The notes under the pieces: generated by a model
Told to the model about the DNA's origin: nothing
The model's input: the letters and a program-made list of their open reading frames with translations, nothing else
The model's database searches: none
Position numbers and translations under genes: made by a program
Shown here: positions 18,946 to 49,317 of the stretch, piece after piece
Position numbering within the stretch: position 1 is the first letter of the stretch
Layout: each line of letters starts with the position of its first letter
NCBI GenBank assembly: GCA_016125425.1
Contig: WGLT01000012.1
Span: 205,003-269,002, forward strand
Reading direction: 5' to 3'
DNA: 64,000 nt
Source of the DNA: Alphaproteobacteria bacterium
GTDB lineage: Bacteria; Pseudomonadota; Alphaproteobacteria; Caulobacterales; Parvularculaceae

Positions 18946-18948
18946 GCG

Positions 18949-19806: not shown

Positions 19807-19818
19807 GGGGAGAGTCAC

Positions 19819-21587: not shown

Positions 21588-21769
21588 GATCTTGCGTCCT
21601 TTGGTCAAAGCGCGGTTCTTAGCGGGTTGCGGCGGGCGGGGCGATAGCCGGCGGCCCGCCTGTGCGCCTGCAATCGCGTTTTGCGGGCGAATTGACTACA
21701 AACGCGGCGGCGGCGGGGTGCGGCGCCCTGACGGCGGACGACGACGGAAAGGCGAGCGGCGAGAAAGAC

Positions 21770-22789: not shown

Positions 22790-22790
22790 C

Positions 22791-23861
22791 ATGAACTCAC
22801 GCTTCTCCATCGCGGTACCCGTCGGCGCCTGGCATGATCTCCTGCCGGCCAATCTCGCGAGCCTTCGCGCGCAGAACGTTCCGGTGAGCGTCGCGCTGCT
22901 CGACGCGTCGGGCGATCCGCGCGTCGTCGAACTCGCCGACCGTCACGGCGATTTCCTCCGCTACCGGCGGCACGGGCCGGACGAGGGGCAATCGGACGCG
23001 ATCCTCGAAGGCTGGGCGAACGCGCCGGGCGATATTCTCGGCTGGCTGAACGCCGACGACGTGCTGATGCCGGGCGCGCTCGGCCTGGCGCTCGAGCAAT
23101 TCGAAGCGAAGTCGGCGCTCGATGTCGTCTACGGACATTCCCTCATCATCGACGAAACGGGGGCGATGACCGGCTATCATTTTGCGGTGGAGCCGCCGAG
23201 CGCGCGCCTCTATGAGGCCGGCATCATCTCGCAGCCTTCCTGTTTTTTCCGCAGAAAGAGCTATGAGCGCGCCGGCGGGCTCGACAGAAGCCTCCATTAC
23301 GTCATGGACTGGGAGCTCTGGATACGGATGATGAAGTCCGGCGCGCGTTTCGGATTCATCGACGCGCCGCTCTCCATGGTTCTGTGGGGCGGAGAGACGA
23401 AGACCGCCTCCTTCAACCGGCGCCGGCGCGAAGAGATCCGCAGCGTTCTTGCGGCGCACGCGCCGGAAGGAAAGCAGGGCGGGGTCTTCCGCGCCTTCGC
23501 GCTTCACACGCTGACGGAGCGCTTGCAGCCGCCGGCCTTGCGAAAGGCGGTCCTGCGCCGGCTTCGCCGCGGGGGCCAGGCGATTTACGGCGTCGGCGCG
23601 GACGGGCGCCTTCAGACACGCGCGAAACTTTTCCTTGCGCATTTTTCGGATGCGCCAAAATCGGGCTTTTCGCTCGAAGTCGACGGCGATCCGCGCGCTT
23701 TGCGCGTCGCAAGCGAGGGCGTCGCGCTCGCCGCCGCTGCGAGAAGGGGCGCGCTCGACGTCGCTCTGGAGCGTCCGCTCGAAGCCGGCCGCCTCGTCGT
23801 GGCGGATATAGCGCTCGCCAGTGACGCGCGCGTCTTTCTCAAACGCTGCGCGTGGATCTGA
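22791..23861 (+). CDS. Glycosyltransferase (GT2-like)
   Basis: 'GQSDAILEGWANAPGDILGWLNADDVLMPGALGLALEQF', 'SCFFRRKSYERAGGLDRSLHYVMDWELWIRM'. Confidence 0.85.
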   Translation: MNSRFSIAVPVGAWHDLLPANLASLRAQNVPVSVALLDASGDPRVVELADRHGDFLRYRRHGPDEGQSDAILEGWANAPGDILGWLNADDVLMPGALGLALEQFEAKSALDVVYGHSLIIDETGAMTGYHFAVEPPSARLYEAGIISQPSCFFRRKSYERAGGLDRSLHYVMDWELWIRMMKSGARFGFIDAPLSMVLWGGETKTASFNRRRREEIRSVLAAHAPEGKQGGVFRAFALHTLTERLQPPALRKAVLRRLRRGGQAIYGVGADGRLQTRAKLFLAHFSDAPKSGFSLEVDGDPRALRVASEGVALAAAARRGALDVALERPLEAGRLVVADIALASDARVFLKRCAWI

Positions 23862-25225: not shown

Positions 25226-26107
25226 TCAGCCTTCGAAATAGGCGGCCGGCCGGGAGAGCGGGCGCGAAAGCCGCGCCTCGAACAGGCCGCCGGAGAGCGG
25301 GCGGGGGCGCAATTCATCCGTATCAAGACCAATTGAGGCGGATGTGACGAACAGCCGGTCTTCAGCGAAAGCGACGCTTGTCGGGCGGCGAACCGGAAGA
25401 GGGAGGGTCTCGAGGAGTTCGCCCTCCGGCGAAAAGCGCCGCACGGCTGCGCCGTCCCAGAAGGCGATCCACAAACAGCCTTCGGCGTCGATCTCCATGC
25501 CGTCCGGATAGCCGTCTTGCGGCTCGAACGTCAGAAAAACGCGCTTTTCCCCGAGCGTTTCGCCGTCGGTCTCGGCGACATAGACATTCCGCACGGCGGA
25601 ATCGGTGAGGAAGACGCGCCCGCGGGCGGCGTCAAAAGCCGGGCCGTTCGTCACCTTGAAATGCTCGTCGAGCCGGACTGTCCGCCCTTCCGGCGAAAGC
25701 CGCCACCACGCGCCCGTCGCTTCTTCCTCGCGGTCGTCCATCGTCCCGGCCCAGAAGCCGCCTTTCGGGTCGACCTTGCCGTCATTGAAGCGGTGATGGG
25801 CGATGTGGCCCTCGGGATTGGAGATCGCTTCAAAATGCGCCTCGCCGCGCTCGATCCTCAGCCGCGCAAAGCCGTCCTTGCGCACGCAGACATAGCCGCC
25901 CTTCCGCGCCAGCCCGATCGCGCTCGTCATCCCATGCGCATGAAGGGTCACAATACGCTCCGTTTGCGGATCGTATTCGAAGATCTTCCCGCCCTTGATG
26001 TCGACGAAGACAAGCCGGCGCGTGCGCGGGTCCCATAAGGGGCCTTCGCCGAGAACGGCGCCGACGGGGGCGACGCAACGAACTTCGCCTGAAACGCTCT
26101 CCGTCAT
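25226..26107 (-). CDS. SMP-30/gluconolactonase/LRE family lactonase
   Basis: 'APVGAVLGEGPLWDPRTRRLVFVDIKGGKIFEYDP', 'TNGPAFDAARGRVFLTDSAVRNVYV', 'PDGMEIDAEGCLWIAFWDG'. Confidence 0.9.
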   Translation of the reverse strand: MTESVSGEVRCVAPVGAVLGEGPLWDPRTRRLVFVDIKGGKIFEYDPQTERIVTLHAHGMTSAIGLARKGGYVCVRKDGFARLRIERGEAHFEAISNPEGHIAHHRFNDGKVDPKGGFWAGTMDDREEEATGAWWRLSPEGRTVRLDEHFKVTNGPAFDAARGRVFLTDSAVRNVYVAETDGETLGEKRVFLTFEPQDGYPDGMEIDAEGCLWIAFWDGAAVRRFSPEGELLETLPLPVRRPTSVAFAEDRLFVTSASIGLDTDELRPRPLSGGLFEARLSRPLSRPAAYFEG

Positions 26108-26171
26108 GCGCCAATCCGGATTTCGCGCGGGCGCGCGCCGGCCGGCGAACGCTGCATGAGAACGCGCCCGC

Positions 26172-27116
26172 TCACAGTCGCTCGCCGAGAAGCCGCGCCA
26201 TCTTGTCGATTGCGAGCAGACTGACGCGCTTGACCGCATCGACTGTGTTCGAGCCGTTATGCGAGCCGAAAATGCATCTGTCGAAGCGCCTCAGCGGGGA
26301 GGCGGGCGCGAGCGGTTCGACCTCGAACACGTCAAGGGCGGCCGAATGGACGACGCCGCTCTCAAGACCTTTAAGCAGCGCCCCTTCGGAAATGACCGGC
26401 CCGCGGCCGACATTCACGACGCGCACGCCGTTCTTCAGCTTCGAAAGCAGCGCTTCATTGAACATGCCGCGGGTCTCATTGTTCAGCGGGCAGGTGAATA
26501 TGAGGAAGTCCGCCTCGCCGATGCGCGCCGGCCATTCGGCGCGTTCGACCTCAAGGCCCTCGACGGGTTTGAAAAACGGATCATAGGCGATGACTTTGCA
26601 CCCGCAGGCGAGAATGCGCCGCGCCGTCTGCCGGCCGATATCGCCGAAACCGACGATCGCGACCGTCTTGCCGGACATGCTGACGCCCGCCGGTTTCGGC
26701 CAGAGATTCTTCTCGCGGATCTCCCGGTCGATGCGATAGCTCTCGCGCGCGAGGCCGAGCGCGTAGGCGAGCGCGAGATCGGCGACCTCGCCGCCGAATA
26801 CGCCCGGCGTGTTCTCGACCGGAACGCCGAAATCCTTGAAGGCCGCGAAGTCGACATTGTCGACGCCGACGCCCCATTTGACCGCCGCCTTCAGCCGGCC
26901 CTTGACGCCCGCCGCGACGACGTCGCGCGTCGCCGGATCGTCGCCGATGATCCAGCCGTCATAGAGCGGGATCTCCTTGATCAGCTCCTCGACCGTTTTG
27001 ACCTGGGTCATCTGCGCCGGAACGCATTCGAGCCCTTTTTCGGCGAAGGCCGAGCGGAACGACTCGATCATGCCGAGCATGGGCGGGCAGGTGACGTAGA
27101 TTTTCGGCGCGGTCAT
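26172..27116 (-). CDS. D-isomer-specific 2-hydroxyacid dehydrogenase (phosphoglycerate dehydrogenase-like)
   Basis: 'KTVAIVGFGDIGRQTARRILACGCKVIAYDPF' Rossmann motif; catalytic Arg 'VNVGRGPVI', Glu 'ALDVFEVEPL', His 'FGSHNGSNT'. Confidence 0.9.
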   Translation of the reverse strand: MTAPKIYVTCPPMLGMIESFRSAFAEKGLECVPAQMTQVKTVEELIKEIPLYDGWIIGDDPATRDVVAAGVKGRLKAAVKWGVGVDNVDFAAFKDFGVPVENTPGVFGGEVADLALAYALGLARESYRIDREIREKNLWPKPAGVSMSGKTVAIVGFGDIGRQTARRILACGCKVIAYDPFFKPVEGLEVERAEWPARIGEADFLIFTCPLNNETRGMFNEALLSKLKNGVRVVNVGRGPVISEGALLKGLESGVVHSAALDVFEVEPLAPASPLRRFDRCIFGSHNGSNTVDAVKRVSLLAIDKMARLLGERL

Positions 27117-27121
27117 TCGTT

Positions 27122-27841
27122 TCAGTCCTCGGGAAGCGTTTCGCCGCGCGCCACGCGCATCAGCAGCGATTCAGCGATGAACCAGTCCGACTTCTCGTCG
27201 ATATCGACCGATTCGAGCGCAGGCGTCGCGAACAGGATCGGTTTTTCGCCGATGCGCGCTTTCGTTTTCGCAAAGCTCTCGGCGGTGAACAGATAGCAGA
27301 CGGAGTTCTCTTCGAGATAGGGCGGCAAATCCTGCGTGCGCACAAGATTGTTCGGGTCGTGATTAATGGCCGCGCCTTCAGGCGTATAAAAGCGCGTCTG
27401 ATGCGGCGTCACCGTAAAGAGCGAGTCCGCCTCGCCTTTCTCCAGCGCCGCTTGATAGCGCGCAATCATTTTCCGGATCGTCGCGACGGAAAGAAGCGGG
27501 TTCGTCGTATGCGTCATCAGGTAATAGTCCGACGGCGTGTTTTCGATATCGTCGGCCAGGACGAGATTCATCGAGACGAAATCGCCGCACAGCTCGGGCT
27601 TGCGGTCGCGGATCATCACCTTGCCGTCATAGGCGCCGTCCTTGAGGCCGTTGTCGGCGAGGATGGCGCGCGCGTCCGTGTTGATGACGATGCGGTCGAT
27701 CTCGGGCGTTTCGGCGAGCGTGTCGAGGATCCAGCGAAAAAGCGGTTTGCCCGCGATTTCCCGGAAATTCTTCGAGGTGACGCGCGCGCTGTGCGCTTTC
27801 ATCGGCAAGAGCGCGGTCAGGCTTTTCGATTGATTGATCAC
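27122..27841 (-). CDS. Acylneuraminate cytidylyltransferase-family nucleotidyltransferase (CMP-sugar synthetase-like)
   Basis: 'LLPMKAHSARVTSKNFREIAGKPLFRWILDTLAETPEIDRIVINTDA', 'YLMTHTTNPLLSVATIRKMI'. Confidence 0.85.
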   Translation of the reverse strand: MINQSKSLTALLPMKAHSARVTSKNFREIAGKPLFRWILDTLAETPEIDRIVINTDARAILADNGLKDGAYDGKVMIRDRKPELCGDFVSMNLVLADDIENTPSDYYLMTHTTNPLLSVATIRKMIARYQAALEKGEADSLFTVTPHQTRFYTPEGAAINHDPNNLVRTQDLPPYLEENSVCYLFTAESFAKTKARIGEKPILFATPALESVDIDEKSDWFIAESLLMRVARGETLPED

Positions 27842-27867
27842 GGGGTCTCCTGAATGCGAAGGCGCGC

Positions 27868-28857
27868 CTAACGGCGGGGCTGGGTCGAAGGTTTGGCGAG
27901 CACGGCGGGGCGCTCGCTTTCTGCGCGGCGGGTCGCGCGCCGGCGCTTTGACCGCGGATAATAATAGCTTTCCTTCTGCGCGCGCGAGAGCACGCGGTGC
28001 TCATTATGACCGAGATAAGCGCCCCAGAACTGCGCGAAGCGGAAACCGATGATGCCGGGCGCCTCCTTGAAGAAGCGCCGCTGTGCGATCGCCTCGCTGA
28101 AGTCGTGGAAAACGCCCGCCGAGAAGCAGCGCAGGAAATCGCTGAAATGAAAATGCACTTCCGGAAAGATTTCGCGTAAGGTGAGCGCTTCCCGGTAATA
28201 GCGCCGGCGCGTCTGCGAAAGCGTCTCTTCGTGAATGTGGATGACGGGCGCGTCCGCGACGTAGCCGATCCGTCCGCCCTCTTTCATGATCGCCTTGGCG
28301 AGGACCATGTCTTCGAGGCCGGTGACGTTTTCGTCGAAGCGATGTCTTTCCCAGAGTTCGCGCCGGATCGCCGCATTCGCATTATTGCAGAATGGTTCGG
28401 CCTGCGGAATTTTGTCGGCTTCGCCGAAATAATGCGCAAAAACCTGATGCTCGGAAAAGCGGCTGATCTCATGCCCGGTCTGGCCGCCATAGACATAATC
28501 GGCCGCTCCTTCGATCAGCGGCGCGACAAGATTGGCGAGCCAGCGCTCATGGGCGGGAATGCAATGCGCCGAGATGAAAACCAGATAGTCGCCCGTCGCC
28601 GCGTCGCAGCCCATATTGAGCGAGCGCCCGAAGGTGAATTCCGATTTCTTGATGTGGACGATCCGGCAGCCATGCTTTCGGGCGATGTCGAGCGTGCCGT
28701 CGGTCGAGCCGGAATCGACGAGAATGATCTCGACGCGCGCGCCGCCCGTCTCCTGCCGCTTGCAGGCGGACAGCGCATCGTCGAACCATTTCTCCTCGTT
28801 GAGCGCGCGGAAAATAATGCTGATCGCGCGTCCGGCGGTTTCGCCTTTTGCAGACAT
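27868..28857 (-). CDS. Glycosyltransferase family 2
   Basis: 'ISIIFRALNEEKWFDDALSACKRQETGGARVEIILVDSGSTDGTLDIARKHGCRIVHIKKSEFTFGRSLNMGCDAATGDYLVFISAHCIPA'. Confidence 0.9.
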   Translation of the reverse strand: MSAKGETAGRAISIIFRALNEEKWFDDALSACKRQETGGARVEIILVDSGSTDGTLDIARKHGCRIVHIKKSEFTFGRSLNMGCDAATGDYLVFISAHCIPAHERWLANLVAPLIEGAADYVYGGQTGHEISRFSEHQVFAHYFGEADKIPQAEPFCNNANAAIRRELWERHRFDENVTGLEDMVLAKAIMKEGGRIGYVADAPVIHIHEETLSQTRRRYYREALTLREIFPEVHFHFSDFLRCFSAGVFHDFSEAIAQRRFFKEAPGIIGFRFAQFWGAYLGHNEHRVLSRAQKESYYYPRSKRRRATRRAESERPAVLAKPSTQPRR

Positions 28858-28933
28858 CGAATCGACCCCCGCGCCCGCATGCGACTGTCAGGAGGGCGCT
28901 CCTGTTTCTAGGCGATTTTCGGCCTCGGGCAAA

Positions 28934-30961
28934 TCATCGGGCCCGCCGCGCAAGGGCGAGATAGCGCCGGGCGAGAGCGCCGACCGCGAGGGCGCTCGCC
29001 GCCGCGGCCGCGCTCGCCGCGACGAGCCCGGCCGTCGCATCGAATGCGCCGGCCGCGGCGATGAGGGCGAGGGCGGCGAGGAGCGCTGCGGCGAGTTTGC
29101 GCCGCCTCCGCTTCAGCGCTCCGGCGCTCCAGCGGAGGAATCCCGCAAGCGATCGCGGCGGCAGGGTCGACGGCGCCGGCGCCGACAGCGGGGATTTCGG
29201 AGCCGGCGCGCGCCGCGCCGGCGCGCCGCCGCCGAGCAAGGCAACGAGATCGCCGGGACCGGCCGCCGCGCCCGTTTCGCGCAGCCGTGCGATCTGGCGC
29301 GCGACAAGGCGCGAATGCACAAGGCAGGCGTCGGGGCAGTCGCGCAGAATGCCGGCGAGCTGCTCGGCCTTTTCGGCGGGCGACGAGGACTCGTCGACAA
29401 TGTTCTGAATGAAATCGGTGTAACGCAGGCGCGCGCTGATCTCCTGCATCAGCCGCCAGTTCGGATTGTCGGGCTGGCGCGAATCGGCCGCCTCGAAAAG
29501 CGAATCGATGACGCAATCGAAAGCGAGCTCCGGGCTTTCGCGCACGAGCCGGTCCAGCTGTGGCTTCCAGGTTGCGGTCAGGAACTCGCGGAAGGCCGGA
29601 GCGCCCGCCGCATAGAGCGCATTGCCGTTGATATGGCGCATTTCGCGCGGGCCGAGCGCGTCGCGCCCGCGATAAATGCTGCCGATGATCCAGGGCGCGT
29701 CATCCGTCCTGACGAGGGCCGCGGCGCGGCCGAGCCAGTCGGGTCGGATCGGCGTACAGTCTGTTTCGAGCCAGAGCGCATAGCCCGGCAGATCCTTCAC
29801 TGCGTCGAGCCCGCCGAAAAACATATTGTTCGGTCCGGCGCGCCGGCCCTGCGCGCCGGCGGGCTTTGCGTTGTCGCGCTCGTACAGATCGGCCTCGCCC
29901 TTCAGGCCGAGATTGACATAGCGCGCGCCGGCGAAACAGCGCGCGAAGAAGGCCGAAGCTTTGAGCGCAGCCTCGATCTCGCCCCGCATGGCGGCGGCGG
30001 CGTCATTGTTGAACACGAAAACGAGCACCGGCCGGCGCGCGGGCGGCGCGCCGAGAAACGGAAAGAACGCCGGCTGCGACCACAGCCAGATATTGTCGAG
30101 AATCTGTCCCCGTTCGCCGGCGGTGACCGGAACGACGACCGAGGACAGCGCCGGCCCGCCGAGAAAGGTTTCGAGCGGGCGGAAAGGGAAAATCCCCTGC
30201 GTCGCCAGAACCGAATTTGGATTGGCGTTGAAGATATGCGTTTCGATCTTCTCTCGCAGGAAGTCGTCTCGTAACACGCCGAAGGCCTGCACATGCAGCT
30301 CGCCGTCATGTTCGGCCGGATTCGGCACGTGGAATTCGTCGCCCGGGCGCTGGTAATCGTCGAAAAAATAATTCGGATTGGAAGCGGGCGCCGCGTCAAG
30401 GCGCAGCCGGTTGCCTTCGAGCGCGCTCGCCTCCGTGAGATCGCGGTAGACGAGATCGACGCCGATCAGCGCGATTTCCCGATAGCCGAGCCAGGCGCCG
30501 TAGCGCAGCGCATAGGCGCCCGTCGTCAGTTTTGACTCGTCGGCGCTGCGAAAAAAGGGAGTCTCCCGGAAAGAAAGGCCGTGCGCGGCGCCGCGCGCGC
30601 CGTGCCAGTGCGCGACGAACTCGTCGAGAAAGACAAAGCGCGGATCTTTCGCGGCTTCGGGATGGTGATCGAGATAGCGCCCGGAGACAAACGCCGTCTC
30701 GATGCGCCCTTCGTTCATCAGGCGCCGGATTTCATTGTGATGCGTGTCGATCAGCGCGTCGTCGAGACAGGCGTAGTGCGTAGGCCGCCAGCCGATCCGG
30801 TCCCAATGGCGGTAGGCGGCGTTCATGCCGATCGTATCGGCGCCTTCCAGCGTGCTGAAGTCAAAGCCTCTAAGGCTCGGCCCGTTGCCGATGACGACAA
30901 GCCGCGCCTGCCGCTGCGCCAGGGCCGTTTTGCCGGCGGGGGAGCTGGATGCGAAGACCAT
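28934..30961 (-). CDS. GNGPSL (DUF115/GT42-like) domain protein with a second glycosyltransferase-like domain and C-terminal TM hairpin
   Basis: 'RLVVIGNGPSLRGFDFSTLEGADTIGMNAAYRHWDRIGWRPTHYACLDD', 'YALRYGAWLGYREIALIGVDLVY'; second domain 'ARYVNLGLKGEADLYERDN...LPGYALWLETDCTPIRPDWLGR'; C-terminal 'LAAALLAALALIAAAGAFDATAGLVAASAAAAASALAVGAL'; start at 30961 inferred. Confidence 0.75.
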   Translation of the reverse strand: MVFASSSPAGKTALAQRQARLVVIGNGPSLRGFDFSTLEGADTIGMNAAYRHWDRIGWRPTHYACLDDALIDTHHNEIRRLMNEGRIETAFVSGRYLDHHPEAAKDPRFVFLDEFVAHWHGARGAAHGLSFRETPFFRSADESKLTTGAYALRYGAWLGYREIALIGVDLVYRDLTEASALEGNRLRLDAAPASNPNYFFDDYQRPGDEFHVPNPAEHDGELHVQAFGVLRDDFLREKIETHIFNANPNSVLATQGIFPFRPLETFLGGPALSSVVVPVTAGERGQILDNIWLWSQPAFFPFLGAPPARRPVLVFVFNNDAAAAMRGEIEAALKASAFFARCFAGARYVNLGLKGEADLYERDNAKPAGAQGRRAGPNNMFFGGLDAVKDLPGYALWLETDCTPIRPDWLGRAAALVRTDDAPWIIGSIYRGRDALGPREMRHINGNALYAAGAPAFREFLTATWKPQLDRLVRESPELAFDCVIDSLFEAADSRQPDNPNWRLMQEISARLRYTDFIQNIVDESSSPAEKAEQLAGILRDCPDACLVHSRLVARQIARLRETGAAAGPGDLVALLGGGAPARRAPAPKSPLSAPAPSTLPPRSLAGFLRWSAGALKRRRRKLAAALLAALALIAAAGAFDATAGLVAASAAAAASALAVGALARRYLALARRAR

Positions 30962-30992
30962 CGTTCCTTTCGGGCCGAACGGGCGCGAACAT

Positions 30993-31820
30993 TCAACTGC
31001 GCGCCCGGGCGCCGTCAACCGGCGCCGGTCCGGCGCGGTTCGCCGGACGCGGCTTTTGCGCCGCGCCGCGGGTCTCTGCGGCGTAGGCCTCGAGCGCGTC
31101 GCGGATGGGGCCGTCGAACCGGATCCGGCCCTTGTCGAGCCAGATGCCGCGGCTGCAGTTCTCAATCAGCAGATCGGGGCTGTGCGAGGCGAGAATGAGA
31201 ATGCCCGCCTTGCCGACGAATTCCTGCATGCGTTGCGACGCTTTCTGTTTGAACGCGGCGTCGCCCGCGCTGATCCACTCGTCGAGAATCAGGATCTCAG
31301 GATCGAAGGCGGTGGCGATCGCGAAGCTCAGGCGCATGCGCATGCCCGCCGAATAGGTCTCGACAGGCATGTCGAGGAACCGGCCGAGCTCGGAAAATTC
31401 AGCGATCTGATTGCGCTTTTCTTCGATCTCCTCGCGCGAGCGGCCTGCGGCGAGGCCTTTGAGCGTGATGTTTCGATGCCCCGTCGCTTCCGAACGCATG
31501 CCGAGATTGAGATTGATGAGATTGGTCGCGCGCCCGCGCGTTGCGACATAGCCGGCGTCGGGCGGATATATGCCTGCGAGCACCTGCAGAAGCGTCGTCT
31601 TGCCCGAGCCGTTCTTGCCGATAAGGGCGAGGCGGTCGCCGCCCTTCAGCGTGAAGGTGATGTCGCGCAGCGCCTTGACGGCGAGAATGCGCCCGTCCTT
31701 CCCGAGGATGAGCCGGTCGTCCTCCGTGAAGGGGATCGGATGGGCTTCTGTCTCGCTGGCGCTCGTGCGCTGGTAAAGCGGGAAAGTGAGCGAAACTTTT
31801 TCGGCGTGGATGGAATGCAT
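30993..31820 (-). CDS. ABC transporter ATPase for polysaccharide export (KpsT/Wzt/TagH-like)
   Basis: 'LALIGKNGSGKTTLLQVLAGIYPPDAGYVATRGRATNLINLNLGMRSEATGHRNI', 'YSAGMRMRLSFAIATAFDPEILILDEWISAGDAAF'. Confidence 0.93.
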   Translation of the reverse strand: MHSIHAEKVSLTFPLYQRTSASETEAHPIPFTEDDRLILGKDGRILAVKALRDITFTLKGGDRLALIGKNGSGKTTLLQVLAGIYPPDAGYVATRGRATNLINLNLGMRSEATGHRNITLKGLAAGRSREEIEEKRNQIAEFSELGRFLDMPVETYSAGMRMRLSFAIATAFDPEILILDEWISAGDAAFKQKASQRMQEFVGKAGILILASHSPDLLIENCSRGIWLDKGRIRFDGPIRDALEAYAAETRGAAQKPRPANRAGPAPVDGARARS

Positions 31821-31894
31821 TGGCTACCGGTTACTGCGCCCCGACACAGGATGTCGCCCCTTTTCGCTCCTCGCGCAAGCCGGCACGCCGCGCC

Positions 31895-32833
31895 CTAGAC
31901 CCAGAACGGCAAGCGCCGGCGCATCCGCCAGGCGGCGATGGCGGCGGCGAGCCAGATAACGGCCGAGCTGATCAGCACGACGGCCCAGCTCGAAAGGCGG
32001 GGTTCTGCGCCCATGAGCGGCGCCCTGAAGATCTCAAGAAAATGAGTGAGCGGATTGACGTCGGCGAGCGTTGCGCGAATTCCGCGCATCTCCTCGCGCA
32101 CCCAGAGGATGGGCGTCATGAAAAACAAGACGCGCATGATTGTAGCGACAAGATGGGGAATATCTCGGTACCGCGCCCCGAACAGACCGAGGAAATACTG
32201 AATCGCAACGGCGTCGAGCAGAAAGATAGCGGCGGCTGGAAGCGATAAAAGAGAGAGCCAGGTCGGGCGCCAGCCAAAATAAATCATGACCCCCAGTGCG
32301 ACCAAAAGCTGCAAGGCGACAGTAAACACCGATCGGAAAATGCTCTTATAGACATAAATGGAATAGGGCAGGGTCGTGCTCTTGATCCAGTTGCCCGAAG
32401 CGCTGAAGACCTGACAGCCATCGGTTATATTGCCGACAAGGAATTGGTAGGTTGCGTAGCCAAGCGCCACATAGATGATGAACTGGTGCGCGCCCATTTT
32501 TGCAAACCCTGCGAAGAAAAAGGCGATCGTGCCGACAAAAACCGCGTAGGCGACGAAGATCCACAGAATGCCGAGTACGGACCGGCGATAGCGCTGCTGC
32601 ATCTCGTCCCAGGCGAAGGCCCGCCAGACCTCGCTCATGCCAAGGCCGTCAATGACATCTTCAAACAGAATGGTCGGCCGCGATGCGGCGGCGGAGGAGG
32701 AGACCGCCACGCCGGCGCCAGGCGGCGTGGCTGCAGACGGGGCGGCGCGCGGGATGTCGGCGGCGTTGCTCATTTCCGGCGAACGATTTGATTCTGGATT
32801 AAGTCGGTCTGCATTTCCAATATAATCGCTCAC
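31895..32833 (-). CDS. ABC-2 type polysaccharide export permease (KpsM/TagG-like)
   Basis: 'VWRAFAWDEMQQRYRRSVLGILWIFVAYAVFVGTIAFFF', six hydrophobic segments; GTG start overlaps the upstream stop (GTGA). Confidence 0.88.
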   Translation of the reverse strand: MSDYIGNADRLNPESNRSPEMSNAADIPRAAPSAATPPGAGVAVSSSAAASRPTILFEDVIDGLGMSEVWRAFAWDEMQQRYRRSVLGILWIFVAYAVFVGTIAFFFAGFAKMGAHQFIIYVALGYATYQFLVGNITDGCQVFSASGNWIKSTTLPYSIYVYKSIFRSVFTVALQLLVALGVMIYFGWRPTWLSLLSLPAAAIFLLDAVAIQYFLGLFGARYRDIPHLVATIMRVLFFMTPILWVREEMRGIRATLADVNPLTHFLEIFRAPLMGAEPRLSSWAVVLISSAVIWLAAAIAAWRMRRRLPFWV

Positions 32834-35800
32834 CAGTCGAAATCCTCAGCATAGCCCAGATCTATCAGCGCCTGGCCGTAGCGTTCTTTGAAAACCTCTT
32901 TGATGCGCGGCGTGAAATATTCGCTCCACGGCCCGCTTTCGGGATTGGCCCAAGTGCGCCCCGTATCGGCCCCTGCAATATCCGGAACGCCCAGGAATTC
33001 GGCTATCCTTCTGAGAAACGTTTTGGAGTCCTTGGAAAATTCCTCGATCTTTACGGTCATGACCCGATGATCGTCAAACGGCGCCAGAATCTGGTTCTCA
33101 ATCACATCCTTAGAGATATTGTCGAGCTCGTACAAAAGCCCTTCTTCCTGCGAAAGTTCGCGCAGCACAGGCTGGTCTTCTGCAAGCTTGTCCCACACCC
33201 AACCATGTTGTTCGGTGTAGTGATTGCCCTTGTGGTGGAAATAGTCAGAAACCAGAATCTGTCTTGGATCACGAATAATCCGCAACCCTTTCCAGTCGCC
33301 GGTCGCGCGTTTAATCCGTTCAAGCGAGCGCCGGGTCGCGTTCGAGAAAAGCACAACGTCGCGCCCGCCTTCGTTGAGGCCGGTGAAATCGATATTGCAG
33401 AGGTCGAGCTCATCGCCGCTCCGAAAATGAAATGGCGGGTGCTCGATTTTATATTGGCGAATGCGTGCTCCTGTCGCTTCGGCGATCGTCGTGAATATTT
33501 CGGCCCGAAAAAACCGCGAAGCGCATTTGTGATGGCCGAAGAACACTAGTGTTCCGGGCGCATCAGGAAAACGCAGAGCCCCGATCTGGCGTTCACTGGC
33601 GGCTATGCGCTCGCGAAGACGGGGAATCTCAGCCGTGCGGACGAGGATTTGCTTGTGCAATACTTCGGCGCGCTCCCTGATCCCGGCCAGCTCTTCGTCC
33701 ATCCTCATGAAACCGGCGACTCTCTTTTGGGTCAACATCTCGGCTAACTCCGCGCGCGCATCGGCGGCCGATTTGATCGCGGCTCGCATTTCCGCGTTGA
33801 GGCGGGCCGTCTCCCGGCGGTTCATGTCAAGGTCTACTGATATTCGCCGATTTTCCCGGCGCATCGCTTCAAGTTTTCGGCCCTGCCGGTCCGCCTCTGT
33901 CCGCAGCGCCGCCGTTTCCGCCGAGAGCGCGTTCACATATTGATAGACGCGCAAGGCGAGGTAGAGAACGGCGAAAGCGAGCGCGCCGAACGCGGCGCCG
34001 CCCCAGAGGAGGGCGCGCCAGTCCGCAAGCGACGGCAGCAAGCCGAGACCCGCGATCCCGGCGAGCAGAAGCAGCGACGGGACCGTCCAGATCCGCCGCC
34101 GCCACAGTCCCGCCAATCCGCGCCGCGCGAGGCGCGCGGCGGCGAAGGCGCGCGGCGAGCGACGCATCAGCCATTCGCCGAAGGGCGCATAGAACGGCCG
34201 GCGCGGCGCTCGTTCATGTTGGGGCGCGGCGAGCGCCGGCGGCTTCCTGTGCAAATTCCTGAACAACGAATAATAATCTGCGCGCTCAAAGACCTCGAGA
34301 CGACCGCCTATTGTCGCGTTGTAAATTTTCCGGCCCGCGGATTCATAGGCGATCTTAGCCTGGCGATAGCTGTTTGCGACGCGATCTAGCTTGGGATCCT
34401 TCCACGTCTTGCCTTTGCCGAAATAATCCTTGTGGAAGTGATTGGGATCGTCTGTAGTCGAATAGATCCAGTTGCCTTCCCGCCCGTGCTCTTGCGGAAT
34501 AACGTAGTTGAAATCCATGCCGATCAGATAGACTTCAGTGAATCCCATGAAGAAAGCGAGCTGCATGTTGATATAGGTGACGGTCTGCCCGCAGAATAAC
34601 TCCTTCGTGGCGTCCGTCGAGAAGCGCGGCGCGCAATAGTTGGGGCTTGACTGCAAATAGAAGCCCCAGTTGGCGGGAAAGAAGAAAACATTGCGTCCAG
34701 GCGGATGAAGATCCTTGTAGTTGGCCGGGAAAAATTTGAATGGAACCTTGTAGGCCTTGATGTCTTCGATGTTCTCCTGCATGACGAGGTTATCTTCGAC
34801 GACGAAAAATGTCGGTTTGAAGCCCGTTTCTCTGGTCTTGTAGAAGAATGAATTGACCGCGAACGTATACTCGTTTTTGAGCAGCGAAAGATCATGCTTG
34901 TTGAGGGACGGGCCGTTGCCGATGATGAAACATCGTTTGCCCTTATACGCATTATGAAACTTCGATAGCGCCTGGCGCTCTTCTTCGGAGATATCGACAA
35001 TCTCGCGTTTTGCGTATGCGCCGAGATCGATGTCGTAGTGAGGATATAAGACATTCTCCGGCGTAAAGGGACGGGTCAGGCGTTTGCTCTCCTGCAAGGA
35101 CTCGATGAGCTGCTCGGCGATTTTCGGCGTCGCCGATTTTGCGATTTTTGACTGGCGGAAATCGGACAGCAACGCCTGAAGTCCGATACGGCGCAGGTTG
35201 AGCTCCTCCCGGAAGCGCTCTTTGATGTCTTCCGGCGCGTCGGCGAGCCGCTTGCGGACGCCCTCGATCATGTACAAAGTACGGCGGGCGATGAGCGCTC
35301 TGGCTATTGGCCGGGCCTTCCGGGCCGCCATGAACGCGTCCGCGTCGCGCCATTGCGCGAAGATCGTTTCGATATGCGCTTCGGTGGCGCATTTGCTGAG
35401 CGACCCGCTTCTCTGGCGATAGAAATATATTTCATCGCTGATCTCGCCGACCGATTTGCTAAATTCCAGCGCCTTGAAAGTGAAATAGAGATCCTCGTGC
35501 GGCGCGCGCGCGGGGAAGATCAGACCGTTTTCTTGAATAAGCTTCGTGCGATAAAGCCGGGCCCATGCTACCGACGGCGCAAATACGCCGAGCACTTTCT
35601 CAGCGGGCGAGAGCGCCGGGGATTCTTTCGGCATCTCGTGTTGCGGCAATTCGTCGGTACGGATCGGCTGGGCGACGCCGTCTTCGGAAACGCGGACAAA
35701 ACGGCCCGTAACGACATCAAAATCGCCGCGCTTTTGCTCCGCCCGCAAAGCGCTGACGGCGTTCGGCGAAACGTAATCGTCGCTGTCGACAAAAAGGATA

Positions 35801-38721
35801 AACGCCCCCCGGCAAGCCCTGACGCCGGTGTTTCGCGCCGCGCCGAGACCGGAATTCTCCTGCCGCACCGACATGAAGTTTGGGTGCTTGGCGCAATATT
35901 CGTCGATGATTTTCGACGTTCTGTCCGTGCTGCCGTCATCGACAACGACAACTTCGAAATTTTTGTCATCCTGTGCGACAAGCGAATTGAGGCACTCTTC
36001 GACATACGTTTCGACGTTATAAGCGGGAACAATGACCGAGATCAGCGGCTCGTCCGGCGCAGACCTCGACGCGGCCGCCCGATTGCGAACTGCGAATGCG
36101 GGAGAATTTTCAGCCGGCCGCTTCTTAAGCGTCTCCTCGTAGTCCGCCCGTTCGAAAATCTCCAGCTTGCCGCCTATCGTAGCGTTGTAAATTTTGCGCC
36201 CCACAGCTTCGTAGGCGAGCTTGGCCTCGCGATAATTCATCGCGACGCGGTCAAGCTTCGGGTCTTTCCATGTTTTTCCTTTTCCGAAATAATCCTTGTG
36301 AAAATGATTCGGATCGTCTGTGGTGGAAAGAATGATGTCGCCGTTGCGTTTGTGCTCCTTCGGAATCACATAGTCGAAATCCATCCCGATCAGATAGACT
36401 TCGGTGAAACCGAGAAAGTATGCCAGTTGCAGGTTGATATAGGTGACGGACTGGCCGCAATAAAGAACGCGCGATGCGTCCCGTGAAAATCGCGGGACGC
36501 AGAAATTCGGGCTCGATTTCTCATAAAATCCGCGGTTCATGCGGAAGAAGAACGTGTTCGGCGTTTTCGGGTGAAGCTCCCGATAAATCGTCGGGAAGAA
36601 TTTGTAGGGCGCCTCATATTCGCGAATGCGCTCAATGTTCTCCTTCATCACCGACGTGTCTTCAACAACGTAGAATGTCGGACGGAACCCGGTTTCGTCG
36701 GTCTTGTAGAAGAACGAGTTCACCGCAAAGACGTACTCGTCTTTCAATAGCGACAGATCGTGTTTGTTAAGGGAAGGGCCGTTGCCGATGATGAAGCAGC
36801 GCCGCCCTCTGAATGCGTTATACAGCGCGGCGATCTCTTCGCTGTCCGGATCGGGTGCGTCATAAAGTTCTTTCGCCGGATAATCTCCGAGAGTCGTGAA
36901 TTCGGGCGGAAATACCGGCGCGCCTGGTTCTGACGCCGTGACATCGTCAGCATAGAGCCCGTTGACGGTCAACGCGCGTCCAGACCGATAGAGATCCGGG
37001 TCGCCGAATGAGGACGCGCGTTTGTCGAGATTCCGCTCTATCCGCGCCAGTGACTTATGCGCGCAATTTTTATGAATGTCGTCAGCTGCCGATAGGGACA
37101 TATCGACAGTGCAGCCGTAGTTCTCCCGCAAGTGGGCGAGCACCTTCGCGAGTTCCGCCTCATCCGGTTCGGCAGACGGGTGAAATAGATGCGCATAAAC
37201 GAAATCCGCCACGCGGACTTCTTCCGGGCCGCAGCTGCTGAGCAGCGCGACATCGAGAGCGCGATCCTCGCCGCCATAGCTCGTATATTGTTCAAATCCG
37301 AGCAACCGCAGAAAGGCGTCGCGGCGCATGATGACGACGCCGCCTGTGATCGTTGTCGGCTTTTTCACGCCGTTCTGCCGGCGCAGTCCGTCAAGAGAAT
37401 ATTCGGCTATGACCTCTGCCGCTTCCTTCGGATTCGTGAAATATACATTGGCATAGGGCGAGATCGCCTTGTGCTTCTTGTGACATGAGACGATTTCGTC
37501 GACGAAATTACGGCCGAGCAGCACGTCCGTATCGAGCAGCGCGACGACGGCGTTTTTCGTGAAGTGCTTGACGGCGACATTATAGCCCCAGCCGCGATTG
37601 TATGATCGCGGATTGTAGAGGAACTCATGTCGGACGTATGAGCAAGTCGGCCCAAGCCGGTCGATCTTGGATTCCGTGTCCTGTTCGATCAGGAGGACAT
37701 CAAAAAGATCGCCGTAAAACCGGTCGATCCATGACAGCAGAAAACGGAGGTTGTCGACGCGCGACGGATCGTCATCCGGAAATCTGACGCCAATAATCAA
37801 TGTCGCCAGCTTTTCTTCCGGTTCGAGGCCGGCGGCCTCGAGCGCGCGGAGGCGGTCTTCGGCGGAAAGGACCGCCGGCGTCAATAAAGGGCGCCCGTTC
37901 GGCGCGAAGGGCTTGTCGGCTTGTTCGCTTGGCGCATCGTTCGTGCGCGCGCCGCGAACGCTGCGCGCTCCAAGCCTGAGCCGTTCGGCGAGCTTTTCGT
38001 AAATATAATCGCTTCCGGCTCGCGTGAAATGAATATTGTCGCAGGTATATCGTTGTATCTCAGCCTCGCTCCAGCCGAGAAGATCGATTGTTTTGTCAGG
38101 GCCAAGAGCATCCCGGAACAGCGCGGAATAGTCAGCGGTTATCCCGATATTTCGCGGCCGGCCTCTTGTAAAATCGCCCTCCCAGCCGGGTACGAAGCGG
38201 TTTGAGTTTACGAACAGGAGATTTTCTATTTCGAGAAGTCGCGGCAGGAGACTTTTCTCCGCCATCTCGAGGCCGTACATGTTGATTGTCGGGCACCCTT
38301 CATACTCGACGCCGAGATCCGAATGCAAATGCGCGAGCATTGCTTCTTCAGTGAAGATCTTGTCAAAACCCGCTTTTTTATTATTGACGACTTTGCGCGC
38401 GTATTCGCGCGTATTGAGCCTTTGGTTGCCCAGATTCGCCGGATTTTTGTTGTCATAAAGATCATTGATCGCGCTTGGCTGCGCGCGCGGCGACCATTCG
38501 ACAATGCCCGTCTGCAACACGATGTGGTCGAAGCTTTCCGGACGATATTCTTCCAGCGTTTCCAGAAAGTCGATCGTCGTCGTCCACTTCATCGGGCACA
38601 GGAAAACCGTCGCCTCGACGTCCGGGTGATTCGCCAAACGCGATGTGAAGATGTCGAATGGCGCGGCGCCCCGAGGAATGTGCTGTCCGCGGCTGTCGGC
38701 GTAGATCAGGATTCTTCTCAT
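32830..38721 (-). CDS. 1963-aa multidomain glycan-assembly protein: SGNH-like / GT-A / GNGPSL(DUF115-like) / GT2 / GNGPSL(DUF115-like) / TM hairpin / coiled coil / sulfotransferase-like
   Basis: 'GIVEWSPRAQP' and 'DNIHFTRAGSDYIYEKL'; 'FLYNPRSYNRGWGYNVAVKHFTKNAVVALLDTDVLLGRNF'; 'RRCFIIGNGPSLNKHDLSLLKDEY'; 'LISVIVPAYNVETYVEECLNSLVAQ...ILFVDSDDY'; 'KRCFIIGNGPSLNKHDLSLLKNEY'; 'SLLLLAGIAGLGLLPSLADWRALLWGGAAFGALAFAVLYLAL'; 'TLVFFGHHKCASRFFRAEIF...LRIIRDPRQILVSDYFHH'. Confidence 0.85.
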   Translation of the reverse strand: MRRILIYADSRGQHIPRGAAPFDIFTSRLANHPDVEATVFLCPMKWTTTIDFLETLEEYRPESFDHIVLQTGIVEWSPRAQPSAINDLYDNKNPANLGNQRLNTREYARKVVNNKKAGFDKIFTEEAMLAHLHSDLGVEYEGCPTINMYGLEMAEKSLLPRLLEIENLLFVNSNRFVPGWEGDFTRGRPRNIGITADYSALFRDALGPDKTIDLLGWSEAEIQRYTCDNIHFTRAGSDYIYEKLAERLRLGARSVRGARTNDAPSEQADKPFAPNGRPLLTPAVLSAEDRLRALEAAGLEPEEKLATLIIGVRFPDDDPSRVDNLRFLLSWIDRFYGDLFDVLLIEQDTESKIDRLGPTCSYVRHEFLYNPRSYNRGWGYNVAVKHFTKNAVVALLDTDVLLGRNFVDEIVSCHKKHKAISPYANVYFTNPKEAAEVIAEYSLDGLRRQNGVKKPTTITGGVVIMRRDAFLRLLGFEQYTSYGGEDRALDVALLSSCGPEEVRVADFVYAHLFHPSAEPDEAELAKVLAHLRENYGCTVDMSLSAADDIHKNCAHKSLARIERNLDKRASSFGDPDLYRSGRALTVNGLYADDVTASEPGAPVFPPEFTTLGDYPAKELYDAPDPDSEEIAALYNAFRGRRCFIIGNGPSLNKHDLSLLKDEYVFAVNSFFYKTDETGFRPTFYVVEDTSVMKENIERIREYEAPYKFFPTIYRELHPKTPNTFFFRMNRGFYEKSSPNFCVPRFSRDASRVLYCGQSVTYINLQLAYFLGFTEVYLIGMDFDYVIPKEHKRNGDIILSTTDDPNHFHKDYFGKGKTWKDPKLDRVAMNYREAKLAYEAVGRKIYNATIGGKLEIFERADYEETLKKRPAENSPAFAVRNRAAASRSAPDEPLISVIVPAYNVETYVEECLNSLVAQDDKNFEVVVVDDGSTDRTSKIIDEYCAKHPNFMSVRQENSGLGAARNTGVRACRGAFILFVDSDDYVSPNAVSALRAEQKRGDFDVVTGRFVRVSEDGVAQPIRTDELPQHEMPKESPALSPAEKVLGVFAPSVAWARLYRTKLIQENGLIFPARAPHEDLYFTFKALEFSKSVGEISDEIYFYRQRSGSLSKCATEAHIETIFAQWRDADAFMAARKARPIARALIARRTLYMIEGVRKRLADAPEDIKERFREELNLRRIGLQALLSDFRQSKIAKSATPKIAEQLIESLQESKRLTRPFTPENVLYPHYDIDLGAYAKREIVDISEEERQALSKFHNAYKGKRCFIIGNGPSLNKHDLSLLKNEYTFAVNSFFYKTRETGFKPTFFVVEDNLVMQENIEDIKAYKVPFKFFPANYKDLHPPGRNVFFFPANWGFYLQSSPNYCAPRFSTDATKELFCGQTVTYINMQLAFFMGFTEVYLIGMDFNYVIPQEHGREGNWIYSTTDDPNHFHKDYFGKGKTWKDPKLDRVANSYRQAKIAYESAGRKIYNATIGGRLEVFERADYYSLFRNLHRKPPALAAPQHERAPRRPFYAPFGEWLMRRSPRAFAAARLARRGLAGLWRRRIWTVPSLLLLAGIAGLGLLPSLADWRALLWGGAAFGALAFAVLYLALRVYQYVNALSAETAALRTEADRQGRKLEAMRRENRRISVDLDMNRRETARLNAEMRAAIKSAADARAELAEMLTQKRVAGFMRMDEELAGIRERAEVLHKQILVRTAEIPRLRERIAASERQIGALRFPDAPGTLVFFGHHKCASRFFRAEIFTTIAEATGARIRQYKIEHPPFHFRSGDELDLCNIDFTGLNEGGRDVVLFSNATRRSLERIKRATGDWKGLRIIRDPRQILVSDYFHHKGNHYTEQHGWVWDKLAEDQPVLRELSQEEGLLYELDNISKDVIENQILAPFDDHRVMTVKIEEFSKDSKTFLRRIAEFLGVPDIAGADTGRTWANPESGPWSEYFTPRIKEVFKERYGQALIDLGYAEDFDW

Positions 38722-38732
38722 GTAAGCTTCGC

Positions 38733-39653
38733 CTACCGCATCGTCGCCGTCGTAGTCTCTGATTCGGCGGCGCAGTCGCCTGCTCGGGTTTTGAGCCGGC
38801 AGATTGCGTAAGTCATGCCGTAGGCGACGAAATCATAATCATAACCCGTTTCCGCAATAAACTCCTCGAATGCCTTCAGCTCATGTTCGCGGAAACCGCG
38901 ATAGCCGATGAGTTCGTCAAACACGATCCAGGTTCCCGGCCGGATGAGAGGGTTGAGGGTGTTGAAGATTGTTTTCGTCGACTCGTAGATGTCGCAATCG
39001 ACACGAAGCAGCGAGATCGGCCGATCCCTATTTAGTTCGAGCCATTTCGGCAAGGTTTCGTCGAACCAGCCTTTATAAAGACGAACATTATCAGGCATGT
39101 TGGGAAGAACGCCTTTGACGTCTCCGAATGATCCTTTCAATGCATGGGTCCAGTCGAAAGGAAGTCCTTCAAACGAGTCAAAGCCGTGGATGGTCTCCGA
39201 CGGAAAGATCCTCGCCAGCTCCCTGGTGCTGCCGCCCTTATAGACTCCGAGATCCAGGATCGACCCGCCCAAAGTCATGATTGCCTCTCGCTTCGCTTGA
39301 ATAAAGCGGAATTGGTTCAAGACAAACATGGCCTTCGGCATCGCCGCGTCGACATAATCATACGTATCGGCCGCGGCGCGGCGGTTCTTCTCAGCCAGCA
39401 ATGCGACGAAGCGGTGGTTGCCGGCATAGAAATTCTGGAGGGCCGCATTCGCCTCGGGCGTGCCCAGGTCCCGAATGGCTCTCGCTATGTCAATCCTGAC
39501 GGGAGGAGCATCGTCGGCGTTCGCAGCCGCCGGAGGGCGATTGGAGTGCGCGGCGTCGGCTTTCCGCAACCGCTCAAGCTCTGCAACTGCTTCGCGTGTT
39601 ATGAACGACACGAGCCGTCGAAATTGATTCTTGAAAAACGTTCTGATCATCAC
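38733..39653 (-). CDS. TylF/MycF-family methyltransferase
   Basis: 'ILDLGVYKGGSTRELARIFPSETIHGFDSFEGLPFDWTHALKGSFGDVKGVLPNMPDNVRLYKGWFDETLPKW', 'LRVDCDIYESTKTIFNTLNPLIRPGTWIVFDELIGY'. Confidence 0.85.
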   Translation of the reverse strand: MMIRTFFKNQFRRLVSFITREAVAELERLRKADAAHSNRPPAAANADDAPPVRIDIARAIRDLGTPEANAALQNFYAGNHRFVALLAEKNRRAAADTYDYVDAAMPKAMFVLNQFRFIQAKREAIMTLGGSILDLGVYKGGSTRELARIFPSETIHGFDSFEGLPFDWTHALKGSFGDVKGVLPNMPDNVRLYKGWFDETLPKWLELNRDRPISLLRVDCDIYESTKTIFNTLNPLIRPGTWIVFDELIGYRGFREHELKAFEEFIAETGYDYDFVAYGMTYAICRLKTRAGDCAAESETTTATMR

Positions 39654-39996
39654 CCGCTCGCCCCCGCACCGGATGTTGTGCCTAACGCAGCTCGGCTTTG
39701 CTTGAAAGCCCGAACTAGCGCAGTTGCGGCGGGGAGGCCAGTTTCAGCGGGGCCTTTCTGCGGAATCAGACTTGACGATGCGTCCAAATAAACTCGTCGG
39801 CAATTGCGCAGATCGCCGCCGCGGCGGCCTGAAATCCGGCGGCGGCGCGCCGAATAGGCCTTTCGCTTTGCAAGCGCGTCTTGCCCCGGACGGGAGCGCG
39901 TTAAACTCAATCGGTTAGACTAGCAGACGCGCGCTAAAAACCTTAGGTTTGTCCGCGAACCAGCGCCTGTGCGTTGAAGACGAAGGGCTGAGGGAA

Positions 39997-41050
39997 ATGC
40001 CTCCCAGATCCGCACTCATCACCGGCGTGACCGGTCAGGACGGGGCCTATCTCGCCCGGCTTCTCCTCGAAAAGGGCTATGTCGTCCACGGGGTGAAGCG
40101 CCGGTCGTCGTCGTTCAACACCGAACGGGTGGACGCGCTCTATCTCGACCCGCACGAGCACAAGACCCGCTTTTTCCTGCATTACGGCGACATGACCGAC
40201 GCGACCAATCTGATTCGGCTCGTGCAGGAGACGCAGCCGGACGAAATCTACAATCTCGCCGCCCAGAGCCATGTCGCGGTCAGCTTCGAGACCCCCGAAT
40301 ACACCGCCAACGCCGACGCTCTCGGCGCGCTCCGCCTGCTTGAGGCGATCCGGATTCTCGGGCTTGAGAAGCGGGTGCGTTTTTATCAGGCCTCGACCTC
40401 CGAGCTCTACGGCAAGGTGCAGGAAGTTCCCCAGCGCGAAACGACGCCGTTTTATCCGCGCTCGCCCTATGGCGCGGCGAAGCTTTACGCCTACTGGATC
40501 ACGGTGAATTACCGCGAGGCTTACGGGATGCACGCCTCGAACGGGATCCTGTTCAATCACGAGGGGCCGTTGCGCGGGGAGACTTTCGTCACCCGCAAGA
40601 TCACGCGCGCGGTCGCGGCGATCGAGAAAGGGCTCCAGCAGACCCTGTTCCTCGGCAATCTCGACGCAAGCCGCGACTGGGGCCATGCGCGCGATTATGT
40701 CGAAGGCATGTGGCGGATGCTGCAGCAGGACGAGCCGGACGATTATGTGCTCGCGACCGGCGAGGCGCACACCGTGCGCGAATTCGTCGAGCGCGCCTTC
40801 GCCGAGGTCGGCCGCCGGATCGCCTGGGAAGGGGCCGGCTCTCAGGAGGTCGGGCGCGACGCGAAATCCGGCGCGGCGCTCGTCAAGGTCGATCCGCGTT
40901 ATTATCGTCCGACCGAGGTCGACGCGCTGATCGGCGATCCGGCCAAGGCGCGCGAGAAACTCGGCTGGCGGCACAAGACAAGCTTCGGCGATCTCGTGAA
41001 GGAAATGGTCGCTTCGGATCTGCGCCTGATCGAACGGGAGAAATGGCGAA

Positions 41051-41067
<17 letters not shown>
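39997..41067 (+). CDS. gmd: GDP-mannose 4,6-dehydratase
   Basis: '[41 protein letters not shown]', '[19 protein letters not shown]', '[46 protein letters not shown]'. Confidence 0.97.
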
Positions 41068-42013
<946 letters not shown>

Positions 42014-42019: not shown

Positions 42020-43006
42020 TCAGCGCCGCTCGCCGCGATACGCCTTATACCAATCGACGAATTTCGGAATGCCGACTTCAAGCGGCGTTTTCGGCTCAAA
42101 GCCGTAATCGCCCTTGATGGCGTCGATATCGGCGTAGGTCGCATAGACGTCGCCGGGCTGCATCGGCTCGAAATGCATCACGGCCTTTTCGCCGATCGCC
42201 TGTTCGAGCACGGCGATGAAGCGCATCAGATCGACGGGCCGGTTGTTGCCGATATTGTAGATGCGGTGCGGCGCGGGCCCCGAAAATTTCGGCGCGTTCA
42301 GGGCGACGGCGAGAACGCCGTCGGTGATGTCGTCGATATAGGTGAAATCGCGTTCGAGATCGCCGTTGTTGAAGACCCTGATCGGCTCCCTGGCGAGCAT
42401 TTTCTCCGCAAAGAGCCAATAGGCCATGTCCGGTCGCCCCCAGGGCCCGTAAACGGTGAAAAAGCGCAGGCCGATCGAGGCGAGCCCGTAAAGGCGCGCA
42501 TAGGATTCGCTCATCAATTCGTCCGCGCGTTTCGTCGCGGCGTAGAGCGAGACCGGCTGCTCGACCGGATCGGTCTCTCGATAGGGAACTTTGGTGTTGG
42601 CGCCGTATACGGAGCTTGAGGAGGCGTAAACAAGAAGCGGACGCTTCGGCGCGCGGCGCGCAAGTTCGAGAACGGAAAGGTGTCCGACAAGATTGGAGGA
42701 CGCATAGGCGAAGGGGTTCTCGAGCGAATAGCGCACGCCCGCCTGCGCGGCGAGATGGATGATGACATCCACGTCCCTGGCTTCGGGCAGAGCGGCGAGG
42801 CGCTCGTGGTCGGCGATATCCATTTCGCGGAACTGGAAGCCGGGCGGCCCGGCGAGCCGGTCGAGCCGCGCGCGCTTCAGCGACGGCGCGTAATAATCGT
42901 TGAGATTGTCGACGCCGATCACCGAATGACCGCGTTCGAGCAGCGCCTTCGACGCATGAAAACCGATGAACCCGGCGGCGCCGGTGACCAGAATGCGTTT
43001 CGACAT
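42020..43006 (-). CDS. NAD-dependent sugar-nucleotide epimerase, UDP-glucuronate 4-epimerase-like
   Basis: 'RILVTGAAGFIGFHASKALLERGHSVIGVDNLNDYYAPSLKRARLDRL', 'HLAAQAGVRYSLENPFAYASSNLVGHLSVLE', 'RFFTVYGPWGRPDMA'. Confidence 0.9.
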   Translation of the reverse strand: MSKRILVTGAAGFIGFHASKALLERGHSVIGVDNLNDYYAPSLKRARLDRLAGPPGFQFREMDIADHERLAALPEARDVDVIIHLAAQAGVRYSLENPFAYASSNLVGHLSVLELARRAPKRPLLVYASSSSVYGANTKVPYRETDPVEQPVSLYAATKRADELMSESYARLYGLASIGLRFFTVYGPWGRPDMAYWLFAEKMLAREPIRVFNNGDLERDFTYIDDITDGVLAVALNAPKFSGPAPHRIYNIGNNRPVDLMRFIAVLEQAIGEKAVMHFEPMQPGDVYATYADIDAIKGDYGFEPKTPLEVGIPKFVDWYKAYRGERR

Positions 43007-49315: not shown

Positions 49316-49317
49316 AA

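Follow-up and report, generated by a model that had tools for sequence, protein, structure and literature searches.

What does a run of minus-strand genes that holds both an ABC exporter and a giant multidomain protein ending in a sulfotransferase build, and what would end the chains it makes? The genes lie in the 64,000-nucleotide stretch analysed here (the window), positions 205003-269002 of contig C10 in a 2.87 Mb, 97% complete genome of the family Parvularculaceae, in the same genus as Amphiplicatus metriothermophilus (G006). With moderate confidence, we read them as a polymerase-terminator, ABC-transporter-dependent surface-polysaccharide locus, O-antigen or group-3-capsule-like.

Gene content and setting

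The earlier note described a ten-gene directon. The minus-strand genes, their coordinates, order and families stood (Table 1), but the directon has nine genes, the DUF2793 gene being separate (222 bp away) and broken. The methyltransferase and giant genes are ~11 bp apart, the giant gene and the permease gene share the GTGA overlap already reported, and the later junctions, from permease to lactonase, measure ~74, 31, 76, 26, 5 and 64 bp. For the GNGPSL gene, ATG at 30961 (675 aa) is the more plausible start, because a start at TTG 31165 would put 173 bp of the gene inside the ATPase gene; the lactonase start is placed at ~26107, replacing 26239. At 56%, the GC content of the giant gene lies below the 63-68% measured for flanking gene groups, which would fit a gene that was acquired or is a mosaic. 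Among the other loci compared the TylF-type methyltransferase found no homologue and so looks like a local addition; its probable role is O-methylation of the glycan or of the cap. Rfam and tRNA scans returned no match, and promoter and terminator scans gave chance-level signals only.

Table 1. Features of the locus and its flanks, in window positions
Feature	Position	Strand	Basis or remark
Directon, nine genes	25226-39653	-	families assigned from Pfam and named models
TylF-type methyltransferase, 306 aa	38733..39653	-	Pfam TylF 4.8e-14
Giant protein, 1963 aa, proposed polymerase, ruler and cap	32830..38721	-	domain content
Giant 1-250, SGNH-like domain, possible acetyl esterase/transferase	37972..38721	-	motifs and alpha/beta model
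Giant ~300-530, GT-A glycosyltransferase	37132..37824	-	Foldseek
Giant 626-870, DUF115/GT42-like domain 1	36112..36846	-	Pfam PF01973 (MptE-like/DUF115)
Giant 893-1120, GT2 domain	35362..36045	-	Pfam 1e-41
Giant 1248-1494, DUF115/GT42-like domain 2	34240..34980	-	copy of domain 1
Giant 1510-1595, conserved spine with TM hairpin	33937..34194	-	
Giant 1596-1709, coiled coil (~115 aa), proposed length ruler	33595..33936	-	
Giant 1710-1963, PAPS-type sulfotransferase, proposed cap	32833..33594	-	Pfam, motifs, Foldseek
Wzm-like ABC-2 permease	31895..32833	-	NF050109 196 bits, below its cut-off
Wzt-like ATPase without carbohydrate-binding module	30993..31820	-	NF050108 240 bits, below its cut-off
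GNGPSL protein, GT42-like N-terminal domain and C-terminal hydrophobic hairpin	28934..30961	-	profile/hhalign
GT2 glycosyltransferase, CMP cassette	27868..28857	-	
Cytidylyltransferase, CMP-ulosonate synthetase-like	27122..27841	-	Pfam CTP_transf_3; PDB NeuA 5e-12
D-2-hydroxyacid dehydrogenase, CMP cassette	26172..27116	-	Pfam
SMP-30/gluconolactonase-type lactonase	25226..26107	-	Pfam 2.6e-66
DUF2793 gene (RcGTA fibre family)	23870-25003	-	starts 222 bp downstream of the directon, at 25003
rmlCBDA, dTDP-rhamnose supply, flank	17116..20691	+	
Two GT2 genes, flank	21662..23861	+	homologues near the locus again in relatives
gmd and fcl, GDP-fucose supply, divergent flank	39949..42013	+	
UDP-hexuronate-epimerase-like gene, flank	42020..43006	-	

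The family matches lie far above noise and the same gene set was found again in many genomes, so the locus is more than a chance grouping. Gene-neighbourhood comparison bore out the co-conservation expected of a single module as far as the gene set goes, but not its order, and there is no conserved operon: in Amphiplicatus (locus L033) the same genes run in several transcription directions, with neither the order nor the single-strand layout kept. Genes for dTDP-rhamnose, GDP-fucose and UDP-hexuronate supply do lie nearby, as had been claimed (rmlCBDA, gmd/fcl and the epimerase-like gene). The proposal that the locus is self-contained was not supported, since the genome carries its sugar-phosphate transferases (initiator candidates), APS kinase (PAPS synthesis) and Wzy_C/ligase-family genes (ligase candidates) elsewhere. 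Flagellar genes adjoin the glycan locus (fliN, flgE, flgK, a flagellin-C-domain gene and flgI; window 44396-51429), and in a Marinicaulis genome fliN, flgE and flgK likewise lie beside it (L062:10946-14273).

A giant protein with an exchanged cap

The GT2, GT42/DUF115 and sulfotransferase domains first recognised in the giant protein were all recovered; the analysis adds an SGNH-like domain, a GT-A domain and a second copy of DUF115, as well as the TM hairpin and coil that had been missed. Residues 1-250 carry the motifs ADSRG, QTGIVEWSPR and DNIHFT with no family match and, from these motifs and an alpha/beta model, appear to be an SGNH-like domain. The GT-A domain was detected at fold level only, with no Pfam match; its top Foldseek hits are chondroitin synthases (5e-8 to 4e-7; model pLDDT 62), and a PDB profile search with residues 1-560 found no match. 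The GT2 domain is likewise chondroitin-synthase-like (PDB chondroitin synthase, 8e-32). It sits between the two copies of a duplicated DUF115/GT42 domain (window 34240-36846), which are 70% identical. Profile searches connect the DUF115 domains to GT42 sialyltransferases (E=4.5e-6) and the GNGPSL protein to CstII (GT42; E=1e-5), and hhalign pairs the GNGPSL protein with DUF115 at 99.8% probability; we use GT42-like for both in this sense of profile homology. Judged by sequence, the giant protein combines four glycosyltransferase-type domains with a membrane hairpin and a coiled coil, and the PAPS motifs of its sulfotransferase are intact. The domain content supports the original reading of surface-glycan synthesis and ABC export involving sulfotransferase and GT42/DUF115 domains.

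The coil lies between the polymerase side and the cap, with the TM hairpin at one end and the sulfotransferase at the C-terminal tip. The 3.5-residue periodicity of the window coil was reached by 5 of 500 shuffles, and that of nearly all sister coils by 0-1 of 500, while an AF2 model of the tail places long helices at model positions 64-166 and 172-218 with modest confidence (pLDDT 61, 5 sequences). The sulfotransferase fold was recovered by Foldseek (E=5.8e-5) in agreement with Pfam, and its 5'-PSB and 3'-PB motifs are invariant in five homologues. Where the end of the linker could be placed, linker or coil length ranges from 113 to 251 aa across relatives, and all strict tandem repeats in the linkers (score at least 80) have units of 21 or 42 bp, that is one or two heptads. 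For example, the coil coding sequence of a Hyphomonas locus (L074:3130-3429) holds 7.1 copies of a 42-bp unit with 93% matches; further coil repeats have 42-bp units in G044 and 21-bp units in L065, G050 and L067. At exactly two heptads per unit, the Hyphomonas repeat is a possible way of changing the length of a ruler. It is the variable coil length, the heptad-unit repeats and the long modelled helix that lead us to assign the coil as a putative ruler.

A profile of the spine (the TM hairpin, alignment A3) applied to 149 relatives found the architecture in 17, the match being weak in three (G003, G007, G147); as relatives share ancestry, these counts are not independent events. What follows spine and coil differs. 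A sulfotransferase is present in the window, G030, G044, G050 and L065, a Methyltransf_24 domain in G006, G036, G146, G118, G126, L074 and others, and another methyltransferase in G042 and G034, the three cap types being mutually unrelated; a further three relatives (G022, G046, G100) have the coil but no fused cap. The window and Amphiplicatus giants share 86% identity over 1493 aa, whereas their coils and caps have no homology and the Amphiplicatus cap is a methyltransferase unrelated to the window sulfotransferase. Against the G030 giant, the N-terminal part has no homology and the tail is 63% identical over 320 aa. These alignments show the cap exchanged between relatives, and it looks like an exchangeable part because in a close relative a cap that adds methyl groups sits on an almost identical builder. 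The coil-methyltransferase module is also separable, as both G019 and an Opitutales genome (L119) have it as a protein of its own; it is fused in another Opitutales genome (L122) and a Pseudomonadaceae genome (L125). Such a pattern would follow from polymerase, ruler and cap functions that can be separated, as published for Klebsiella O3, O4, O7 and O12 (PMC11231755). The possibly sulfated, exported glycan of the earlier note survives, with two things added that it lacked: the ruler with its exchangeable cap, and the CMP-sugar logic behind the genes for cytidylyltransferase, dehydrogenase and lactonase.

Predicted CMP-sugar supply and export

The cassette of GT2, cytidylyltransferase and hydroxyacid dehydrogenase, which often includes an SDR and in some cases the lactonase, recurs in Alphaproteobacteria, Gammaproteobacteria, Verrucomicrobia and Planctomycetes, with cytidylyltransferase matches of 49-83% identity; the SDR is missing in the window and in Amphiplicatus. 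A cytidylyltransferase beside three GT42-like domains implies a CMP-activated sugar acid. NeuB was absent from the window's own genome and from all same-genus genomes searched, so a NeuB-type nonulosonic acid supply was rejected; the cytidylyltransferase was also rejected as PseF (58 bits against a cut-off of 206). Cassette, GT42-type transferases and missing NeuB together point to a CMP-activated 2-keto sugar acid other than the NeuB product, and in the literature searched the cytidylyltransferase-dehydrogenase cassette has no direct precedent. In 11 Verrucomicrobial loci the cytidylyltransferase stands beside an HpcH/HpaI aldolase without the dehydrogenase, and aldolase and dehydrogenase are both near it in only one of 80 named loci. 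Two Opitutales loci pair aldolase and cytidylyltransferase directly (L119:5023-8793 and L122:5639-7137), with CysD- and CysN-like genes adjoining the pair in L119. These loci may reach the same CMP-sugar acid, or one like it, by another route, and their product may be sulfated.

Both DUF115 domains and the GNGPSL protein are profile-homologous to GT42 sialyltransferases such as CstII and to Maf flagellin transferases. An alternative reading is a protein-glycosylation locus, for instance one acting on flagellin, whose DUF115 domains would work as Maf does. The DUF115 profile does match a Maf structure (5mu5), weakly (E=0.002), and flagellar genes adjoin the locus both here and in the one Marinicaulis genome. 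We nevertheless hold this to be very improbable: Wzm/Wzt, gmd/fcl and the giants with several glycosyltransferase domains are co-conserved, cytoplasmic flagellin glycosylation needs no exporter, and the genus lacks NeuB for a Maf donor. Unlike CstII and Maf, the window DUF115 domains lie inside a multidomain polymerase, in a genome without NeuB-made nonulosonic acid.

The permease and ATPase are closest to the galactan Wzm/Wzt models (NF050109/NF050108), the best named models and also those of an exporter lacking a carbohydrate-binding module (CBM), though both score well under the curated cut-offs. The window Wzt stops after the NBD and has no C-terminal CBM; the same is true of G006, G042, G030 and G044. 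Among Methyltransf_24-capped loci, G036, G118, G126, G146 and L074 have a C-terminal extension of 150-180 aa on Wzt, assumed from place and size to be a CBM. This association is only a hint, because the counts are small and four of the genomes are close relatives. An ABC-2 permease and ATPase with CMP-sugar genes would also suit a group 2 (Kps-type) capsule locus, yet PF05159 (KpsC/KpsS) is missing from the whole genome and was found in E. coli by the same search, so we reject this possibility as having next to no likelihood, in line with the original judgement.

A candidate polymerase-terminator system

In the mechanism that we propose, unlinked initiators would make a primer on undecaprenyl phosphate, and the chain would grow at the membrane through the glycosyltransferase domains of the giant, the GNGPSL GT42-like enzyme and the GT2 enzymes, drawing on dTDP-rhamnose, GDP-fucose, UDP-hexuronate and a CMP-activated 2-keto sugar acid from the CMP cassette. 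The coiled coil would hold the sulfotransferase at a distance from the domains that polymerise, and a chain would be capped only once it is long enough to reach it, the cap probably being an O-sulfate on the non-reducing end; the TylF-type methyltransferase would probably add a further O-methyl group. Export would follow through Wzm and the CBM-less Wzt, after which the chain would be ligated to lipid A core or kept as a capsule. We infer the terminal sulfate, the ruler function, the direction of growth, the sugar composition and the cell-surface location from sequence. The assignment of a cap draws on unrelated caps being swapped at the same tip position, and the wider context agrees, as the genome has APS kinase, ligase-like and initiator genes and no KpsC/S. 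Counting against the proposal are the Wzt without a cap-reading module, the tail pLDDT of 61, the three uncapped coils, and a domain order, glycosyltransferases first and cap last, that is the reverse of WbdD and WbbB.

The sulfotransferase could instead act inside the repeat unit. The same glycan would then be exported with its repeat units sulfated, the coil serving only as a spacer or oligomerisation arm and chain length depending on how polymerisation balances against export, as it does with CBM-less galactan exporters. A Wzt without a CBM, closest with its permease to the galactan models, suits this alternative, and repeat-unit sulfation is reported for sulfated ABC-exported capsules (PMC11641403). 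We consider it unlikely, if a serious competitor, given that unrelated methyltransferases replace the cap at the same tip position, coils differ in length and carry repeats in heptad units, and a capping enzyme at the tip of a coil is the published terminator arrangement (PMC11231755). An end cap seems the more likely role of the sulfate.

Like WbdD (E. coli O9a / K. pneumoniae O3) and WbbB (K. pneumoniae O12), the giant has a coil parting the capping enzyme from membrane-proximal polymerase modules, is paired with Wzm/Wzt export, and has sister proteins with methyltransferase caps. It differs in its sulfotransferase cap, its C-terminal cap and N-terminal glycosyltransferases, its larger number of glycosyltransferase domains, its TM hairpin in place of an amphipathic helix, and its CBM-less Wzt. 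For that last reason we say that the locus works like a CBM-dependent member of the type, without filing it as a textbook case. In the published plan a coiled-coil ruler carries the terminator at its far end and the glycosyltransferase modules vary in where they sit (PMC11231755), and K. pneumoniae O4 and O7 resemble the window in having modules variably fused or split round a coiled-coil terminator. The O4 terminator is CMP-Kdo-dependent (PMC11231755); in the window, by contrast, the CMP-sugar-type enzymes are GT42/DUF115-like and on the polymerase side, and the cap is a sulfotransferase. The sulfated capsule of Vibrio sp. KMM 8419 (PMC11641403) shares PAPS genes, sulfotransferases, ABC export and rhamnose supply, but its sulfotransferases are reported as separate genes and the word 'coiled' occurs nowhere in that paper.

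Terminating groups described in the literature found are methyl, phosphomethyl and Kdo. A sulfotransferase tied to chain termination has no direct precedent in the literature searched, although an earlier terminator survey may list one. What the window adds to the polymerase-terminator type is the sulfotransferase cap, the TM-hairpin spine and the reversed domain order. With a natural sulfotransferase/methyltransferase swap on polymerases that are otherwise 86% identical, the ruler-terminator model can be put to a direct test beyond the enterics, and the swap hints at interchangeable parts from which sulfate-ended chains of a set length might be made. The NeuB-free CMP cassette points to an undescribed CMP-activated sugar acid. 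Tentatively, we would go further and see a family of assemblers with plug-in ends, made of a membrane spine, a heptad-expandable ruler and sulfotransferase or methyltransferase terminators, in which sulfate would be a new terminating group for ABC-exported polysaccharides and the glycan, with its CMP-activated sugar acid, may be the receptor for the bacterium's own gene-transfer-agent (GTA) fibre.

The GTA of R. capsulatus uses the capsule as its receptor, and capsule and head-spike genes are regulated together there (PMC10218006). The DUF2793 gene, broken here by an in-frame TAG at codon 46 (24866-24868), was rejected as a glycan gene; it belongs to the RcGTA fibre family (PMC10883770) and is probably a GTA fibre gene. 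It is the only DUF2793 in the genome, which also has an RcGTA-type GTA_TIM gene (G000:C10:119901). Of the 20 genomes with both genes, 7 have DUF2793 no more than 20 kb from the cytidylyltransferase, against ~0.24 expected for random placement, the genomes not being independent.
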